In this document: positions 23,233-52,764 of the stretch, piece after piece
Layout of the letters: each line of letters opens with the position of its first letter
How positions within the stretch are numbered: position 1 is the stretch's first letter
Origin: Roseospira goensis
Lineage (GTDB): Bacteria; Pseudomonadota; Alphaproteobacteria; Rhodospirillales; Rhodospirillaceae
Assembly: GCF_014197795.1 (NCBI RefSeq)
Contig: NZ_JACIGI010000011.1
Location: 1 to 64,000 of the forward strand
Length of the DNA: 64,000 nt
Direction of reading: 5' to 3'
Notes under the pieces: generated by a model
The model's database searches: none
The model's input: the letters and a program-made list of their open reading frames with translations, nothing else
Told to the model about the DNA's origin: nothing
Position numbers and translations under genes: made by a program

Positions 23233-23704
23233 GGCACTCCCTGTGCTTTCTTCTTCGCGGGGACCGGGGCGGGCGCGGCCGCGACGGCTCGCGCCGGGGC
23301 GGTCCCTCGCGGACCTGAACCAAGGGCACGCCGAAACGACCGGACCGGAGGAGGGACCCAGCCGCCGGGGCGCGTACGGATGTCTCGCCCGCCGCGCCGG
23401 GCACGTCAAGTGTGACATCCCGGAGACAGCCAACGGGCGCAAAACCGCCAACGAGCCTCGGCCGCCGCGCGGCCGCCGCCCGGATCGGGGCGAAGGGGTG
23501 CGCGACTCCGCGCCGCGCGCCCATTTTTCGCACCGCACAACGTAGGGCCAGCCGGGCCGGCCTGTCAAACGCCGCCGCCGGCGCTCAGCGGGAATCGGGG
23601 GGGAGCCTTGAGGGCCGGCGCGCCGCGGTGGCGGGGCGCCGCCATCTCCCTTAAGCTGATAGGGACGCCGATGCGGTGTGCCGGGGCAAGGGGAGGCACG
23701 GCCG
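23233..23704. other. Divergent intergenic region, etfB / caspase gene
   Basis: This region should hold the promoters of both divergent genes. I see no gene, clear operator or terminator in it. The plus-strand ribosome-binding site GGGGAGG for the caspase gene is at about 23689-23695. Confidence 0.5.
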
Positions 23705-25909
23705 ATGATGGTTCAGTGGGGGTGCGGGCGATCGGGTCGGGCGGCGCGGGGGGCCGCGGCGCCGGGGGTGATGGTGCGGGTGGTTCTGGTGGCCGTGCTG
23801 GCGTCTGTTCTGACCGGCGCGGCCCTCTGGGGGGCCGCCGGTCCGGCCGGCGCCGCGCCGCCGCCCGGCGAGAACCGGGTGGCGCTGGTGATCGGCAACG
23901 GCGGCTACCCCACCGGTGCCCTGCGCAACCCGGCCCGCGACGCCCGCGCCGTCGCGCGGGCGCTGGAGGCCGTGGGCTTCACCGTCACCACCCTGACCGA
24001 TGCCACGCGCCGCGACATGCGCCGGGCGGCGATCGCGTTCGGCCGCCGGCTGTCCGACGGCGGGGTCGGGCTGTTCTACTACGCCGGCCACGGCGTGCAG
24101 GTGGCGGGGGAGAACTACCTGATCCCGGTCGACGCGGTGATCGAGGACCAGGCCCACGTCGAGGTCGAGGGCATCGCCATCCGCGACGTGCTGGCCCGCA
24201 TGGGCGGGGCGCACAACCGCCTCAACATCGTCATCCTCGACGCCTGCCGCGACAACCCGTTCAAATCGGTGATGCGCTCCGGCGGCGGGCGCGGGCTGGC
24301 GCGCACCAGCGCGCCCACCGGCACCTATCTCGCCTACGCCACGGCGCCGGACCAGATCGCGCTGGACGGCGAGGACACCCGTAACAGCCCCTTCACCGGC
24401 GCCCTGCTGGCGGCGCTGGACCGGCCCGGGGCCGATCTGGACGACGTGTTCCTGAGTGTGCGGCGCGACGTCATGGCCGAGACCGACGGCCGCCAGGTCC
24501 CCTGGGTCAGCAATTCGATCACCGGGCAGTTCTACTTCCGCCCGCCCGCCCCGCCCCCGGCCCCGGCGGGGACGCGGTCCATCGAGCTGCTCCAGCCGGC
24601 GCCCGTGCCCCCGCCAACCACGCCGCCGACCCTGGCCCCGGGCGGCGAGGCCGAGTTGGCGTTCTGGCAGTCGATCCTCGATCTCGACCGGGCCGACCTG
24701 TACACGGAGTACCTGCGGCGCTGGCCGGACGGCACCTACGCGCCCATCGCCCGCGCCAAGATCGAGGTGCTCCAGGCCGGCCCGGTGCGGCTGGCGCGGC
24801 CGGACCCCGACTCCGCCTTCCGGCCGCTCCCGGCCGAAAGCCCCCCGCCGGCCGACTCGCCGGCCGAAGAGACCCCGCCGACGGACCCAACGCCGGTGGC
24901 GGGCCGGCCGGCGAGCGGCGTCGCGCCGGCCGCGCCCGTCTCGGTGCCCGCCGACGCCCGCCCGCTGGGCGCCGACGGCAGCGACGACCCGGACGCGCGC
25001 GACGCCTTCGGGCGCACGGCCCTGATGATCGCGGCCCGCGACGACGACCGCGACCGCCTCCGCCGGCTGCTCGCTGCCGGAGCCGCGGTCAACCTCCGTG
25101 GTCCCGACGGCAACACGGCGCTGACCCTGGCGGCCTGGGAAGGCCATGTCGCAAGCGCCCGCCTGCTGTTCGAGGGCGGCGCCGATCCACTGGCCGAGGG
25201 GCCGGCGGGGCCCGCCTGGGAGGGCCTGGCGCGGACCCCGGACGGCGCCCCCCTGCTGGCCGACATGGCGGCCTGGGTGCCCGAACTGGGCGAGACCCTG
25301 CTGGAGCCCGACCGCGGCACATGGCGCGAGGCCCAGGCCCGCCTCAACGCCCAGGGCCACGGTGCCGGCCCGGTCGACGGCCAGCCCGGCCCGCGCACCC
25401 GCAAGGCGCTGGAAGCGTTCCAGCGGGCACAGGATCTCGCGGTCACGGGCTACCTGGACGCGGCCACCCTGGCCCGGCTCGAAGCCGTGCAGCCCACCCT
25501 GCCGCGCCCGGCCCGGGTGGCGGCCGAGGGCGGGGTGCCGACCCTGGTGCTGTGCCGGCGCGTGGGCGCGGTGGTGGGCGACGGCGATGCGGCCGACCAC
25601 CGCAACCCGTTCCGTGTCACCTTGCCGTCGCCGATGGCGGTCGTGCGCGTACAGGTGGAGGCCCACGACAACATCGGGTTCCTGTCGGAGGCCGAGCTGC
25701 AACTTTATATCGACAACGTGTTCGTCGGCAGCCACGACGTCAAGTCGGAGGGCAGCACGCTCACCTATGGGCTTCAGGCGACGGGCTCACGCCTCGACCT
25801 GTTCTCGGTCGGCGGCGGCGCGCTGGCCGACGGCGACGACACCTACATCACGGCGATCCGGGTTTACGCCCTGCGGCCCGAGGGCACCGCGCCGGCCGCC
25901 TGCCGGTAA
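23705..25909 (+). CDS. Exported caspase-like protease with ankyrin and PG-binding domains (copy 1)
   Basis: A 734-residue protein. A signal peptide or anchor at about 23-51 is followed by a C14 caspase-fold domain (about 57-285) with the dyad His129 (YYAGHG) and Cys181 (DACRDNPF). Then come a short helical repeat ([19 protein letters not shown]), a Pro-rich linker, ankyrin repeats (about 430-495, GRTALMIAA and [14 protein letters not shown]), a peptidoglycan-binding-like domain (about 540-592, [12 protein letters not shown]...[13 protein letters not shown]) and a C-terminal beta-rich domain of unknown type. I took the ATG at 23705 after GGGGAGG. The next gene is a close paralogue. Substrate and role are unknown; location is probably periplasmic. 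Confidence 0.9.
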
Positions 25910-26022
25910 GGCCGCCAGGGCCGGGCGTGGCGATGGCTCTGGCCGCGCGCGCCCAATTGACTTATTCTGAAGCCGTGACGTCCGACGTGTCGCGCTGAGG
26001 GAGACTCGGGGGAGGCCCGGCG

Positions 26023-28314
26023 ATGTCTGGGACGATATCTGCGGTGTCCGGAACTGCGGTGTCCGGGAACGCGCCGGCGGGCGGCCGAGCGCCCCGGTCG
26101 GTCCTGAACTGGCTGGGGGCCGCGCTCGTCGCCGGCCTCCTGATCCTGGTCGCCGCCGCGCCGGCCGCGGCCGAGGCGGCCGGCGCCGCGCCGGACCAGG
26201 AGACCCGGGTCGCCCTGGTCATCGGCAACGGCGGCTATGACAGCGGCAGCCTGTCCAACCCGACCAACGATGCCATCGCCCTGTCGCGGGCGCTGCGCGA
26301 CGTCGGCTTCGACGTCACCACCCTGGTGGACGCCACCCGCCAGGACATGCGCCGCGCCTACATCGAGTTCGGCCGCCGGCTGTCCGACGGCGGGGTCGGG
26401 CTGTTCTACTACGCCGGCCACGGCGTCCAGGTGCACGGCGAGAACTACCTCATCCCGGTCGACGCGGTGATCGAGGACCAGGCCCACGTCGAGGTCGAGG
26501 GCGTCAACGTCCGCGATATCCTGGCCCGCATGGGCGGCGCCCGCAATCGGCTCAACATCGTCATCCTGGACGCCTGCCGCGACAACCCGTTCAAGTCCGT
26601 GATGCGCTCCGGCGGCGGGCGCGGGCTGGCGCGTACCAGCGCGCCGACCGGCACCTACCTGGCCTATGCGACCGCCCCGGATCAGGTCGCCCTGGACGGC
26701 GAGGACACCCGCAACAGTCCGTTCACCGGCGCCCTGCTGACGGCGCTGGAGGAGCCGGGCCAGGACCTGGACGACATCTTTCTGTCGGTGCGGCGCGACG
26801 TCATGGCGCGGACCGACGACCGCCAGGTGCCGTGGGTGAGCAACTCGATCACCGGCCAGTTCTATTTCCGGCCGCCGGCGCCGGAGCCGGCGGCGCCGGC
26901 CCAGCAGGCGACCCGGTCGATCGAGCTGGCCGCCCCGCCGATCCCGCAGTCGCCACCGGCCGGCAGCGAGGGCGAGGTCCTGTTCTGGGAATCCATCATG
27001 GACGCCAACCAGGCGGACCTGTACCGCGAGTACCTGTCGCGCTGGCCCGACGGCACCTATGCGCCGATCGCACGCCTGCGGCTGGACCGGCTGGAGAGCG
27101 CGAGCGCGCAGGCCGGGGACGGGGAGGCTGACGCGGCGGCGGCGCCCGCCGCCCCCGACACCCCCGCCGCCCCCGACGCGGCAACCGTTGGCGCCGCGCC
27201 GTTGTGGCCGACCGGCCGCCCGGCGCCGGGCACGAGCGTGGCCGATGCCGCCGGCACCGCCGGCACCGCCGGAACGGGCAGCCGGGGTGGCGCCCCCCCG
27301 CGCCCCCAGAGCGCCGGCCTGCCGCCGTCGCCGGTGCCGCAGGCGCCGACCGCGCTCGGCGCCGACGGCAGCAATGATCCGGACGCCCGCGACGGCCTGG
27401 GCCGGACCGCGCTCATGATCGCGGCCCGCGACAACGACACGGCCCGCCTCCGCAAGCTGCTGGACGTCGGCGCCAGCCTGGAACTGCGCGCCCCGGACGG
27501 CAACACGGCGCTGACGCTGGCGGCCTGGGAAGGCCATGTCGAGAGCGCGCGCCTGCTGCTGGACGCCGGTGCCGATCCCACCGCGGAGGGGCCGGCGGGG
27601 GCCGCCTGGGAGGGCCTGGCCCGCACCGCGGCGGGCACGGCGCTGCTGGAAGACGTGGCCGCCCGCGTGCCCACCGTCGGCGAGACCCTGCTGGGGCCGA
27701 GCCGCCAGGACTGGCGCGAGGTCCAGGCCCGGCTGAACGCCCTCGGCTTCGGGGCCGGGGGCGTGGACGGCCGGCCCGGCCCGCGCACGCGCGGCGCCCT
27801 CCAGGCCTTCCAGGGCGCCCACGGCCTGCCGGCCACCGGCTATCTGACCACCGCCAGCCTGACCCGCCTGCGCGCGCTGCAACCGCAAGTGCGGGTGCCG
27901 CAGGCGCAGCCGCGCCGGCGCGACGAGGCCCCGGCCCCCATGGTCCCGGTGCTGGTGCATTGCGAGAGCGTCGGCGCGGTGCTGGGCGGCAGCGGCGCCG
28001 ACCTGCCCAACCCCTACAACGTCACCCTGCCCGAGTCGATGCGGGTGGAGCGCGTGCAGGTGGAGGCCCACGACGACGTCGGGTTCTTCACCAACGCCGT
28101 GCTGCACATGTACCTCGACAACGGCTTCATCGGCCGGCGCGACGTCAAGGCGGCCGGCAGCACGCTGTCCTATGCGGTGGGGCGCAACGGCCGCTCGCTC
28201 CAGTTCTATTCGCGCGAGGAGGACGGCATCACCGGCGACGAGGAAACCTTCATCCACACCATCCGGGTCTTCGCGCTGCGGCCCAAGGGCACGCCGGACG
28301 CCCGCTGCCGGTGA
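26023..28314 (+). CDS. Exported caspase-like protease with ankyrin and PG-binding domains (copy 2)
   Basis: A 763-residue paralogue of the preceding gene with the same domain order: signal sequence (about 28-50), caspase domain with His133 (YYAGHG) and Cys185 (DACRDNPF), FWESIMDANQADLYREYL, a longer Ala/Pro/Thr linker, ankyrin repeats, a PG-binding-like domain (QARLNALGFGAG...PGPRTRGALQAFQ) and a C-terminal domain with VEAHDDVGFFTNA and TIRVFALRPKG. Stretches of the catalytic domain are nearly identical to copy 1 at the DNA level, while the linker has diverged. That suggests duplication with selection or gene conversion on the protease. The gap between the genes is 113 bp, so they may be co-transcribed. 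Confidence 0.9.
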   Translation: MSGTISAVSGTAVSGNAPAGGRAPRSVLNWLGAALVAGLLILVAAAPAAAEAAGAAPDQETRVALVIGNGGYDSGSLSNPTNDAIALSRALRDVGFDVTTLVDATRQDMRRAYIEFGRRLSDGGVGLFYYAGHGVQVHGENYLIPVDAVIEDQAHVEVEGVNVRDILARMGGARNRLNIVILDACRDNPFKSVMRSGGGRGLARTSAPTGTYLAYATAPDQVALDGEDTRNSPFTGALLTALEEPGQDLDDIFLSVRRDVMARTDDRQVPWVSNSITGQFYFRPPAPEPAAPAQQATRSIELAAPPIPQSPPAGSEGEVLFWESIMDANQADLYREYLSRWPDGTYAPIARLRLDRLESASAQAGDGEADAAAAPAAPDTPAAPDAATVGAAPLWPTGRPAPGTSVADAAGTAGTAGTGSRGGAPPRPQSAGLPPSPVPQAPTALGADGSNDPDARDGLGRTALMIAARDNDTARLRKLLDVGASLELRAPDGNTALTLAAWEGHVESARLLLDAGADPTAEGPAGAAWEGLARTAAGTALLEDVAARVPTVGETLLGPSRQDWREVQARLNALGFGAGGVDGRPGPRTRGALQAFQGAHGLPATGYLTTASLTRLRALQPQVRVPQAQPRRRDEAPAPMVPVLVHCESVGAVLGGSGADLPNPYNVTLPESMRVERVQVEAHDDVGFFTNAVLHMYLDNGFIGRRDVKAAGSTLSYAVGRNGRSLQFYSREEDGITGDEETFIHTIRVFALRPKGTPDARCR

Positions 28315-28402
28315 GAGCCGGACAGAGCCGGGGAAGGGGCGGTCGGAGCGGGACCCGGGACATCGGCGGACGGCAGGTCGGCGGACGGCAGGGAGGCGGG
28401 TG

Positions 28403-29302
28403 ATGACGGGCAGGGCGACGGGGGCGGCGGGCGTGGGGCGCCCGCCCGGCGCAGCGTGGTGGCGCGTGGCACGCGCCGCGGAACCGCGACACGCGCCAAG
28501 GAGAGGGACCCCGACGACACGGGGGCAGACGACACGGGGGCAGACGACACGGGGGCAGACGACACGGGGGCAGATCACACGGGGGCAGACGCCAAGCGGT
28601 GCGGCTGGCCCGCGGCAGCGTGGCCGTACGCTGCGGCGGTGGCGGCCGCTCGCGACGCTCCTGCTGGCGCTCGCCCTGTGGCTGCCCGCCGCCGCACCGG
28701 CGCCGGCGCAGGCCATCCCGGCCGGCTTCCAGTACAGCCACACCCTCACCTACCGCATCTACCGCGGCGACGACCCCATCGGGCAGACCGCCTTCGAGGT
28801 GCACACCCGGGGCCGCGACCGCACCGTGGTGACCCGCACCACCATCGACGTCCAGGTGCTGCTGTACTCCTACGCCAGCCAGCATGTGGCCACCGAGACC
28901 TGGGAGAACGGGCTGCTGACCGCGCTGGAGACCCGCACCAACGACGACGGCGAGCCCTACCGCGTCACCGGGCGGCGCGAGTCCGACGGTTTCCGCGTCA
29001 GCGGCGCGGCGGGCGAGCACGTCGTGCCGCCCGACACCCCGCCCAAGAGCTTCTGGAACCCGGGCATTCTGACCGCGCCGCGCGTCATCACCACCAAGCG
29101 CGGCGCCCTGGAGGCGGTCCGGGTCCAGACCCTGGGCCGCGAGCGCGTCGCCTACCGCGGCGGCAGCGCCGACGCCACGCGTTACCGGTTCGAGACCGAC
29201 GACGTCATCGACTTGTGGTATACGGACGACGGGTTGCTGGTGAAGGCGTTGCGCGACTCCTTCGGCGGCGACATCCTCTATCTGCTCGACACCACCGGGT
29301 GA
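28403..29302 (+). CDS. DUF6134 family exported protein with TTRGQ repeats
   Basis: A 299-residue protein. Residues 38-63 are five TTRGQ-type repeats from a 15-bp DNA minisatellite, followed by a basic stretch and a hydrophobic signal-like segment (about 83-104, ending APAQA). The mature region of about 195 residues matches DUF6134: YRIYRGDDPIGQTAFEV, TTIDVQVLLYSYASQHVATETW, PKSFWNPGIL and DLWYTDDGLLVKAL. The start (ATG 28403, GGGAGG six bases upstream) puts the signal unusually far from the N-terminus. No standard start codon lies between the repeats and the signal. It follows the caspase pair on the same strand. Function is unknown. Confidence 0.8.
   Translation: MTGRATGAAGVGRPPGAAWWRVARAAEPRHAPRRGTPTTRGQTTRGQTTRGQTTRGQITRGQTPSGAAGPRQRGRTLRRWRPLATLLLALALWLPAAAPAPAQAIPAGFQYSHTLTYRIYRGDDPIGQTAFEVHTRGRDRTVVTRTTIDVQVLLYSYASQHVATETWENGLLTALETRTNDDGEPYRVTGRRESDGFRVSGAAGEHVVPPDTPPKSFWNPGILTAPRVITTKRGALEAVRVQTLGRERVAYRGGSADATRYRFETDDVIDLWYTDDGLLVKALRDSFGGDILYLLDTTG
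28513..28587 (+). repeat. 15-bp minisatellite, five units (TTRGQ)
   Basis: The unit GACGACACGGGGGCA occurs four times exactly and a fifth time as GATCACACGGGGGCA. Being 15 bp, copy-number change keeps the reading frame of the DUF6134 gene. Confidence 0.95.
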
Positions 29303-29354
29303 GCCGCGCCGCTCCGACCGTGGCCCGGCCGCCCCGTGCCAGGAAAGGAGCCCC

Positions 29355-29999
29355 ATGACGGAGAAGAAGGATCCGGTCCTCGAACGGGCCTATGCCGTGG
29401 GCGGCCCCGATGCCGTGCGCGACCTTTACCGCGACTGGGCGGCGGACTACGACCACGACACCGTCGGCCGGCTGGGCTACGTCGCCCCGCGCATCGCCGT
29501 CGACGTCTTCGCCGACCACCTGGCGGGCCGCGAGGCCCCGATCATCGACGTCGGCTGCGGCACTGGGCTCGCGGGGGTCGCGTTGCGCACGCGCGGCTTC
29601 CGCCACGTCGACGGCCTCGACCTGTCGCCGGACATGCTGGCGGAAGCCCGGACCAAGACCCATGCCGAGGGACCGGTTTACGACGCCCTGATCGAGGGCG
29701 ACCTGACCGCGCGCCTGCCCGTGGACGACGACGCCTACGCCGGCGCGGTGAGCGTCGGCACCTTCACCCACGGCCACGTCGGGCCGGCCGGCCTGGGGGA
29801 AGTATTGCGCATCGTGCGCCCGGGCGGCCTGGTCACGGTCACGGTGAACGACGGGGTCTATGACGCCGAGGGCTACGACGCGGCCCTGGCCGCACTGGCC
29901 GCCGCGGGACGGGCAACGGTCGTCGACACCCGGCGCGCCGACTACCTGGTCAAGGAGGGCATCGGCGCCCGTGTCGTCACGCTGGCGGTGGCCGCCTGA
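29355..29999 (+). CDS. Class I SAM-dependent methyltransferase
   Basis: A 214-residue protein with the Rossmann methyltransferase motif I IIDVGCGTGLAG (about 63-74), an acidic motif II region GLDLSPDMLAEAR and the post-I stretch DLTARLPVDDDAY, then LRIVRPGGLVTVTVND. The N-terminus DLYRDWAADYDHDTV is typical of small-molecule methyltransferases. The substrate is not recognisable. AGGAAAGGAGCCCC precedes the ATG. It is the last gene of the plus-strand run that starts with the caspase pair, 52 bp after the DUF6134 gene. Confidence 0.88.
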   Translation: MTEKKDPVLERAYAVGGPDAVRDLYRDWAADYDHDTVGRLGYVAPRIAVDVFADHLAGREAPIIDVGCGTGLAGVALRTRGFRHVDGLDLSPDMLAEARTKTHAEGPVYDALIEGDLTARLPVDDDAYAGAVSVGTFTHGHVGPAGLGEVLRIVRPGGLVTVTVNDGVYDAEGYDAALAALAAAGRATVVDTRRADYLVKEGIGARVVTLAVAA

Positions 30000-51372: not shown

Positions 51373-51618
51373 GGCGGGAGCCGGCGGCGGCCTCGGCGAC
51401 GCGTTTGGCTATACAAACCGGACGCCGGGCAGTACGGTCTTCGAATGGGGCGCCCCGCCGAAACACAAAAAAACGTGCGGGGCGGGCCGTCGTCACTGTC
51501 AGACGGCACAGGCGGCGGCATGCTGGGATCCGGCCCGAGCGTCGGCCCGATGCCGTCGGATGTTCGCCGCTCCGTTTCCGGCGAGGACGCCGGTTAAGTA
51601 AAAGTGGAACGCTACGCG

Positions 51619-52764
51619 ATGAGCGACCAGAGACTGTCGATCGAGGATGTCCAACGCCTGCTGGCGGATCCCTCCGACCAGACCCGGGCCCGGACCGCGG
51701 AGAAGCTCGCCCGGCAGTTTGACGACAGGTCCCTGTCCCCGTCCGAGCGCCGCATGGCGGAGGATATCCTGCGTCTGATGGCGCGGGACGCCGCCGTGCG
51801 CGTGCGCCAGGCCCTGTCCGAGAACCTGAGGGACAATGCGCTGCTGCCGCACGACCTCGCGGTGACGCTGGCCCGAGACGTCGAGACGGTGGCGATTCCG
51901 GTTCTGGAGGTGTCGCAGGTCCTGACGCCCGAGGATCTGATCGAGATCGTGCGCGGCCAAGACGAGGCCAAGCAGACCGCGATCGCCCGCCGTCCGACGG
52001 TGCAGGCCGCCGTCGCCGACGCGCTGGCGCAGGAGGGGACGGAGAAGGCGGTCAGCGCGCTCGCCGGCAACCTGGGGGCGGACCTGACCGAGACCTCGAT
52101 GCAGCGGATCGTCGACCGCTTCGGGGACAGCGAGTCGGTGCAGGGCGGACTCATCAGCCGCGACGTGCTGCCCATCACCATTGCCGAAAAGCTGGTCAAC
52201 CAGGTCTCCGAGGCGTTCCGCGCCCGCCTGCTGGAACGCCACCCGCTGTCGCCCGACGCCGCCGCGTCGCTTCTCTTGCAGTCGCGCGAGCGCGCCACCA
52301 TCGGCCTGTCGACGGGCTCGTCGGAAGAGAGCGTCATCCGGCTGGTGCACCAACTGCGGCAGCATGGGCGCCTGACGCCTTCGATCATCGTGCGCGCCGC
52401 CTGCATGGGCGACATCATCTTCCTGGAGTGCGCGATGGCCGAACTGGCCGGTGTCGCGGTGGCGAATGCGCGCATTCTGATCCACGACTCGGGCCATCTG
52501 GGTCTGCGCGGCATCTTCGAGCGGGCCGGCCTGCCGGAGAGCATCTATCCGGCCCTGCGCGCGGCGGTCGATATCTTCCGCCAGACCGACTACGACGGCT
52601 TGGAGCGGGACCGCGAACGCTACAGCCGGCGCATGATCGAGCGCATCCTGACCCAGTACGGCGACCTCGGCGTGGATTTCGAGTCGAGCGATCTGGAGTA
52701 CCTGCTCGGCCGCATGAGCCAGCTTCCGGCCACGCTGCCCCCGGCCGTGCCGCCGACCGCCTAG
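51619..52764 (+). CDS. DUF2336 domain protein
   Basis: A 381-residue soluble, all-helical protein of the DUF2336 family, HEAT-like repeats found mostly in alphaproteobacteria. Residues 1-110 (VQRLLADPSDQTRARTAEKLARQF, RRMAEDILRLMARDAAVRVRQALSENL) resemble HEAT units, and the remainder contains LERHPLSPDAAASLLLQSRERATI and ILIHDSGHLGLRGIFERAGLP. Some relatives are linked to cell-cycle or stress signalling, but the function here is not established. I took the ATG at 51619 (GGAACG upstream); an in-frame GTG at 51604 is possible. Confidence 0.88.
   Translation: MSDQRLSIEDVQRLLADPSDQTRARTAEKLARQFDDRSLSPSERRMAEDILRLMARDAAVRVRQALSENLRDNALLPHDLAVTLARDVETVAIPVLEVSQVLTPEDLIEIVRGQDEAKQTAIARRPTVQAAVADALAQEGTEKAVSALAGNLGADLTETSMQRIVDRFGDSESVQGGLISRDVLPITIAEKLVNQVSEAFRARLLERHPLSPDAAASLLLQSRERATIGLSTGSSEESVIRLVHQLRQHGRLTPSIIVRAACMGDIIFLECAMAELAGVAVANARILIHDSGHLGLRGIFERAGLPESIYPALRAAVDIFRQTDYDGLERDRERYSRRMIERILTQYGDLGVDFESSDLEYLLGRMSQLPATLPPAVPPTA

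Follow-up and report, generated by a model that had tools for sequence, protein, structure and literature searches.

Introduction

Cell death is the context in which prokaryotic caspases are mostly considered. Orthocaspases, i.e. the prokaryotic metacaspase-like C14 proteases, combine a p20 fold and a His/Cys dyad with a pair of pocket Asp residues and with accessory domains downstream of the caspase domain (excerpts of PMC3501461, PMC5756287 and PMC6426788). According to an excerpt of PMC3501461, published in 2012, 11 of 671 prokaryotic caspase homologues carry a peptidoglycan-binding domain and "may be extracellular", while N-terminal helices, which are reported separately, may be signal peptides; on this account, export is a property of an already known kind of prokaryotic caspase. 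Here we analyze a tandem of two caspase genes, casA and casB, located in a window of 64,000 nucleotides from Roseospira goensis (positions 1 to 64,000 of the forward strand of contig NZ_JACIGI010000011.1, assembly GCF_014197795.1).

In R. goensis, a purple bacterium, both proteins share the listed features with the orthocaspases. They differ by combining ankyrin repeats, a PG_binding_1 domain and a C-terminal domain resembling carbohydrate-binding modules (CBMs), a set seen here in Roseospira only. Two further differences are the tandem pair with its diverged recognition domain and the linkage to a DUF6134 gene. Computational analysis established the architecture, the export-like N-termini, the predicted folds, the linkage within the genus and the asymmetric evolution of the pair. 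casA and casB may be pictured as the same scissors with two addresses: the cutting parts are alike, and the sugar-binding-like tail of casA is much changed.

Results

casA and casB are paralogues with a composite architecture

The two adjacent open reading frames (ORFs) are 60% identical over their whole length in an end-to-end alignment, and their third-position GC content amounts to 0.94 (casA) and 0.95 (casB). Above the curated Pfam cut-offs, casA and casB matched Peptidase_C14 (PF00656; 1.2e-37 and 1.6e-40), Ank_2 (7e-11 and 5e-12) and PG_binding_1 (1.5e-15, 57.5 bits, and 8.5e-15, 55.1 bits; cut-off 23), in this same order in both proteins and followed by ~123 unmatched residues. Since both ORFs are related over their full length, match domains strongly and have the composition of coding DNA, they do not represent a chance pattern. 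No sigma-70-like promoter and no terminator-like site was detected between positions 23400 and 30200 of the window by a scan covering the sigma-70 type only. The features of the locus are compiled in Table 1.

Table 1. Features of the casA-casB locus; positions refer to the window.
Feature	Position	Strand	Basis and remarks
casA, C14 caspase (orthocaspase), 734 residues, export-like N-terminus	23705..25909	+	ORF, Pfam, hydropathy; order: hydrophobic N-terminus, p20 caspase, FW..YL..WPDG segment, ankyrin repeats, PG_binding_1, diverged CBM-like C-terminal domain
casA hydrophobic export segment, residues 22-39	23768..23821	+	hydropathy
casA caspase domain	23876..24535	+	His codon ~24089, Cys codon ~24245
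casA ankyrin repeats	24986..25189	+	Pfam Ank_2
casA PG_binding_1	25322..25480	+	Pfam
casA C-terminal CBM-like domain, fast-evolving, 27 private changes	25535..25906	+	fold inferred from casB model
casB, casA paralogue, 763 residues	26023..28314	+	ORF, Pfam, alignment; architecture as casA
casB hydrophobic export segment, residues 33-50	26119..26172	+	hydropathy
casB caspase domain	26203..26865	+	His133 codon ~26419, Cys185 codon ~26575
casB ankyrin repeats	27373..27585	+	Pfam Ank_2
casB PG_binding_1	27703..27870	+	Pfam
casB C-terminal CBM-like beta-sandwich domain	27943..28311	+	AlphaFold2 (mean predicted local distance difference test score, pLDDT, 85); Foldseek, VIA-align
DUF6134 protein, export-like, predicted EipB-like beta-spiral	28403..29302	+	start codon uncertain
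15-bp tandem repeat, 5.3 copies, in frame, N-terminal part of DUF6134 ORF	28513..28591	+	
Class I S-adenosylmethionine (SAM) methyltransferase, considered not to belong to the system	29355..29999	+	Pfam; orthologues unlinked or in genomes without full caspase

These data bear out an earlier note, made from the letters of the window, which had proposed two adjacent paralogues with C14, ankyrin and peptidoglycan-binding domains, followed on the same strand by the DUF6134 and methyltransferase genes. Its description of the architecture as unusual holds only in part, as caspases with a peptidoglycan-binding domain and possible signal peptides were reported in 2012 (PMC3501461, in excerpt).

Export-like N-termini are common among related caspases

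Hydropathy analysis revealed a strongly hydrophobic stretch at both N-termini, followed by Ala-rich, Ala-x-Ala-like sites, in agreement with the signal sequences that had been suspected. Related caspases were collected with two short caspase motifs, each species being represented by a single genome in the scan, and 80 of 563 confirmed loci were kept. These loci contain 94 C14 ORFs, of which 21 were left out as they possess no recognizable caspase start motif. In 60 of the remaining 73 ORFs, the two Roseospira ORFs included, an export-like hydrophobic segment (mean hydropathy of 1.9 over 14 residues, a cut-off chosen by us) is present at most 80 residues before the caspase start. A scan for further modules in 76 ORFs, one per locus and with L043 and L044 (Roseospira), L118 and L122 excluded, most commonly found Sel1 (15 ORFs), PG_binding_1 (8), SH3_3 (7) and SH3_4, YARHG and FGE-sulfatase (5 each); MlaC and an F5/8-type C domain occurred in two ORFs each, and SBP_bac_3 and VWA were among the single cases. 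Since export-like N-termini are usual among related C14 ORFs and extracytoplasmic-type modules accompany them, the proposal of a protease acting at the envelope rather than in the cytosol is supported.

MlaC, a periplasmic phospholipid carrier, is fused in frame to the C-terminus of two caspases with export-like N-termini (L082:2033-4177 and L106:186-1793, both on the plus strand), which derive from metagenome-assembled genomes of a Rhodospirillaceae and a Proteobacteria member. A further export-like caspase is fused in frame to the family-3 solute-binding domain SBP_bac_3 (L074:7962-10646, plus strand). Exported caspases carrying MlaC or SBP_bac_3 point in the same direction.

Alternatively, casA and casB could be suicide or defence caspases, i.e. 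cell-death effectors killing upon infection or damage. Programmed death is the usual proposal for prokaryotic caspases in the literature (PMC3501461, in excerpt), and there is a weak match to the caspase model of PADLOC (2e-11, 42 bits) as well as matches of PDC-M72A to the ankyrin part (3.7e-9 and 1.8e-11). However, no other complete defence model was recovered among the four proteins tested with PADLOC: for the methyltransferase, the match is confined to the methylase component of mad2 (3.8e-14), and the DUF6134 protein matches nothing. The neighbours in Roseospira marina (DUF2336, DUF2155 and aat) and the export-like N-termini and extracytoplasmic-type modules here and in relatives also speak against such a role, which we regard as improbable.

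The caspase domain retains its catalytic dyad

The catalytic dyad, H133 and C185 in casB, occupies the same columns in casA and in the proteins of R. marina and Roseospira navarrensis, and is identical in all four Roseospira proteins; the earlier note had claimed an intact dyad for casA and casB. Residues D83 and D183 of casB are invariant in the four proteins as well and fit an acidic S1 pocket. By motif position rather than structure alignment, we presume that they correspond to Asp95 and Asp211 of TbMC2. The latter residues form the pocket for a basic P1 residue (PMC6426788, in excerpt). casA and casB are predicted to cleave after Arg or Lys. As to the p10 domain, which orthocaspases lack, the Pfam C14 match extends to position 233 of 233.

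Among proteins of solved structure, the paracaspase MALT1 is by far the nearest to the casB caspase domain in sequence (1.5e-17, positions 26203-26583), and the only other solved structure matching at E ≤0.01 is bacterial GSU0716 (8e-4). MALT1 shares the DxCR motif, here DACR, which has been proposed for type II paracaspases, yet is present in many prokaryotic homologues (PMC5756287, in excerpt). The defining feature of paracaspases is an immunoglobulin (Ig) domain (PMC6426788, in excerpt), but no Ig model matched N-terminally of p20 in casA or casB (Pfam, E up to 1). Both proteins further differ from MALT1 in being bacterial and export-like and in lacking a death domain detectable by Pfam.

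R. goensis encodes a third C14 protein on another contig (C30; L038:6179-8581, minus strand). Its p20 part shares only ~30% identity with those of casA and casB, and its architecture differs: long stretches rich in Pro and Ala come first, and the caspase domain forms the C-terminal end.

The C-terminal domain is predicted to adopt a CBM-like fold

The last ~123 residues of casA and casB, i.e. the beta-rich domain that the earlier note had left nameless, had no Pfam match at E up to 1. According to AlphaFold2, Foldseek and VIA-align, the casB model displays a beta-sandwich, for which CBM36, CBM6 and CBM35 together with the carbohydrate domain of BcsB are the closest known counterparts. On the basis of this predicted model, the domain is described as a CBM-like beta-sandwich. 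Among 298 genomes of the order, a profile search detected it in 3, R. goensis included, all of them Roseospira; up to 14 candidates were scored per genome, so that weakly scoring copies may have escaped. Since the profile was built with casA and casB among its rows, their own scores follow by construction.

casA diverged predominantly in the C-terminal domain

casA and casB cluster together in the caspase tree with a support of 0.996, indicating that the tandem arose in the R. goensis lineage. In a genome search, R. marina (G004) and R. navarrensis (G005) yielded one C-terminal domain each, the R. navarrensis contig ending ~300 bases upstream of the caspase ORF, which renders the site of a second copy unreadable there. 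Elsewhere, two or three C14 ORFs lie side by side on one strand at the distant loci L054, L057, L077, L102 and L118, and tandem caspases thus recur.

The caspase domains of casA and casB are 85% identical and share 78-81% identity with those of R. marina and R. navarrensis. In the C-terminal domain, identity drops to 51% between casA and casB and is 66-68% between casB and the relatives vs. 45-49% between casA and the relatives, so it is casB that stays close to the single copies. Private changes of casA and casB are balanced in the caspase domain (6/6) and number 5/2 in the FW..YL segment, 5/3 in the ankyrin repeats and 7/3 in the peptidoglycan-binding domain. In the C-terminal domain, casA accumulated 27 vs. 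3 in casB (p 8.4e-6; Fisher test against the caspase domain p 0.009, based on four sequences). Fifteen of the 27 casA changes fall in two loops of the model comprising 20 of 123 positions, the loops having been picked after the changes were seen, and strands, which make up 83 of the 123 positions, are under-hit with 13 of the 27 changes (p 0.016).

One explanation would be an ordinary exported orthocaspase accompanied by a decaying duplicate: the C-terminal domain of casA would be unconstrained, casB would keep the original job and DUF6134 would be a neighbour by history. Duplicates often decay, the tandem is private to one genome, the C-terminal branch of casA is the longer one (0.67 vs. 0.14 for casB), and another Roseospira genome (G003) has DUF6134 without a full caspase. 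However, casA retains an open frame, the dyad and the pocket, its caspase domain has changed no more than that of casB, and the clustering of its changes in two loops with sparing of the strands is unlike free decay. Decay is unlikely in our view, yet it is the alternative to be taken most seriously. The casA pattern looks like remodelling of a recognition surface.

A different role of the C-terminal domain would be conceivable in a nutritional or maturation protease, which trims extracellular or outer-membrane proteins. Here, the CBM-like domain would stabilize the enzyme as the P domain does in Kex2, with no ligand being read. The P domain is packed directly against the catalytic domain of its own protein, whereas Pro-rich linkers, ankyrin repeats and PG_binding_1 separate the C-terminal domain from the caspase in casA and casB. 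Moreover, a purely structural domain is not expected to be the sole diverging part, and we give this explanation little credence.

A DUF6134 gene adjoins the caspase in three Roseospira genomes

The DUF6134 protein matched its family clearly (PF19630; 3.3e-43, 148.3 bits, cut-off 27.9). Its start is uncertain, because the tandem repeat lies between possible start codons and the hydrophobic stretch. As compared by VIA-align, the predicted model exhibits the beta-spiral fold of EipB (DUF1849), a periplasmic envelope-integrity protein of Alphaproteobacteria (PMC10787603, in excerpt). The resemblance is confined to the predicted fold: no sequence relation to EipB was detected (hhalign probability 1.2, E 0.043), EipB_like (PF08904) is absent from the families matched by 34 DUF6134 members at E up to 0.1, and R. 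goensis possesses a separate EipB_like gene on contig C18. Our literature search returned no paper mentioning DUF6134 and none with both Roseospira and caspase, nor did any of the papers listed by a further search contain the term carbohydrate-binding module.

Gene order in R. goensis is fixA, casA, casB, DUF6134, methyltransferase, DUF4167. In R. marina, it is DUF2336, caspase, DUF6134, DUF2155, aat, and the syntenic R. navarrensis has caspase, DUF6134, histidine kinase, DUF2155. The caspase-DUF6134 pair is thus kept in the three genomes found with a full caspase, in two different contexts with differing flanks. In G003, DUF2336, which flanks the caspase in R. marina, adjoins DUF6134 with no caspase in between; no C-terminal domain was found in that genome, and a partial caspase (50-55% identical) is located at the end of another contig. 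R. goensis carries DUF2336 on the same contig 22 kb away (51598-52764, plus strand) and DUF2155 on another contig. Close DUF6134 proteins (at least 59% identity) are present in four of seven Roseospira genomes searched. Neighbour conservation gave no usable background rate: 189 R. marina genes compared with ~815 kb of R. goensis yielded 9 reciprocal best hits, too few for a rate, with 2 of 18 neighbour relations and 0 of 10 same-strand relations kept. When the 189 genes were searched by tblastn against the 131-kb contig of the window (45% identity, 40% of the length in one piece), three passed, namely DUF6134, DUF2336 and one other; the caspase, whose match is seen in other searches, failed the single-piece length.

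The earlier note had suggested that DUF6134 and the methyltransferase may belong to one system with the two caspases, to be checked across the Rhodospirillales. Such a four-gene system could not be upheld: with up to 14 candidates scored per genome, the C-terminal domain was detected in the three Roseospira genomes only, and the two relatives with the full architecture have a single caspase each. The methyltransferase was rejected as a member, its R. navarrensis orthologue being encoded on C149 and the caspase on C115. Close methyltransferase orthologues (58-75%) exist in G001, G002 and G005, where they share a contig with neither fixA nor DUF4167, and R. marina gave weak matches only. Of the two observations that would have contradicted the earlier note, one was made, as no examined relative has two such caspases next to each other; the other was not, as both full-caspase relatives carry the caspase beside DUF6134. 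Taken together, the observation made in the earlier note was confirmed as a whole and its interpretation was partly supported.

In surveys of the class, DUF6134 occurs in 153 and C14 in 88 of 385 alphaproteobacterial genomes. Twenty DUF6134 neighbourhoods, drawn from the 30 best-scoring fetched loci and hence not random, contain a cyclopropane-synthase-type methyltransferase (8), an amine oxidase (7), DUF1365 (7) and an MlaE-F-D operon (2). At L229 (1063-10360, minus strand), DUF6134 directly follows a co-directional operon of MlaE, ABC ATPase, MlaD and ABC_trans_aux lipoprotein, and is flanked on the opposite side by photolyase, amine oxidase and cyclopropane-synthase-type genes; members of these families also surround DUF6134 at L233. 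UfaO of R. sphaeroides, which takes part in making furan fatty acids, belongs to DUF1365 (PMC7380195, in excerpt).

Discussion

We propose that casA and casB act in the periplasm as exported orthocaspases with a p20 domain of the C14 family. PG_binding_1 and the CBM-like beta-sandwich would address the protease to a glycan or another envelope ligand, while the ankyrin repeats would supply protein contact. Clustering on the ligand may crowd the caspase domains together and thereby activate them to cut an envelope protein after Arg or Lys. The ancestral unit would comprise one such caspase and DUF6134, an exported envelope protein of predicted EipB fold, which is most likely a partner or substrate of the caspase. 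Following tandem duplication in the R. goensis lineage, the cutting part would have been kept alike and the recognition domain of casA remodelled mostly in two loops, so that the pair may read two ligands with the same proteolytic output. Activity, ligand, activation and the DUF6134 partnership are what we infer here. The whole chain, from export and docking through crowding activation and Arg/Lys cutting with DUF6134 to two differently addressed copies, is tentative, with somewhat less than an even chance of being correct in full.

Several points weigh against this proposal. For all these proteins, activity, localization and ligand are predictions from sequence and models. The C-terminal AlphaFold2 model was built on 4 sequences, with five models spanning pLDDT 85 to 64; Foldseek gave modest TM-scores (about 0.3-0.57 relative to the query) and only 2 matches with an E as low as 0.001, and its lists also contain viral coat proteins and further jelly rolls of non-sugar type. 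No CBM family matches the domain by sequence in Pfam (E up to 1) or among PDB sequences (E up to 10). The faster change of casA could reflect relaxed constraint, the rate test rests on four sequences, and the tandem is known from one genome. Owing to the synteny of R. marina and R. navarrensis at this locus, their caspase-DUF6134 linkage counts as a single observation, and G003 keeps DUF6134 without a full caspase. Outside Roseospira, no DUF6134 stood beside a caspase among the class-survey matches listed, R. goensis being the only case of DUF6134 and C14 within 10 kb; these were compared by eye and cases could be missed. The 20 fetched DUF6134 neighbourhoods gave no caspase with a profile of the Roseospira caspase domain. 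Finally, in a local hidden Markov model search of the 80 loci kept, DUF6134 and the C-terminal domain turned up in the Roseospira loci only; the 78 others, several with short flanks, yielded neither.

With a protease that is 85% identical and a candidate recognition domain that is 51% identical, the tandem is a natural pair in which recognition by exported caspases is directly testable. The predicted CBM-like fold of the C-terminal domain and the EipB-like fold of DUF6134 would provide a first structural handle on two unknown families. More broadly, and with a good deal of doubt, exported caspases might constitute a modular family of periplasmic sensor-proteases, whose C-terminal module would sense an envelope ligand, be it peptidoglycan, a glycan, a phospholipid carrier or a solute, for the caspase to translate into a cut. 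The Roseospira tandem would then split specificity by rewriting the reader loops only and work with the EipB-fold DUF6134 protein, and such caspases may serve envelope repair or surveillance, not death.
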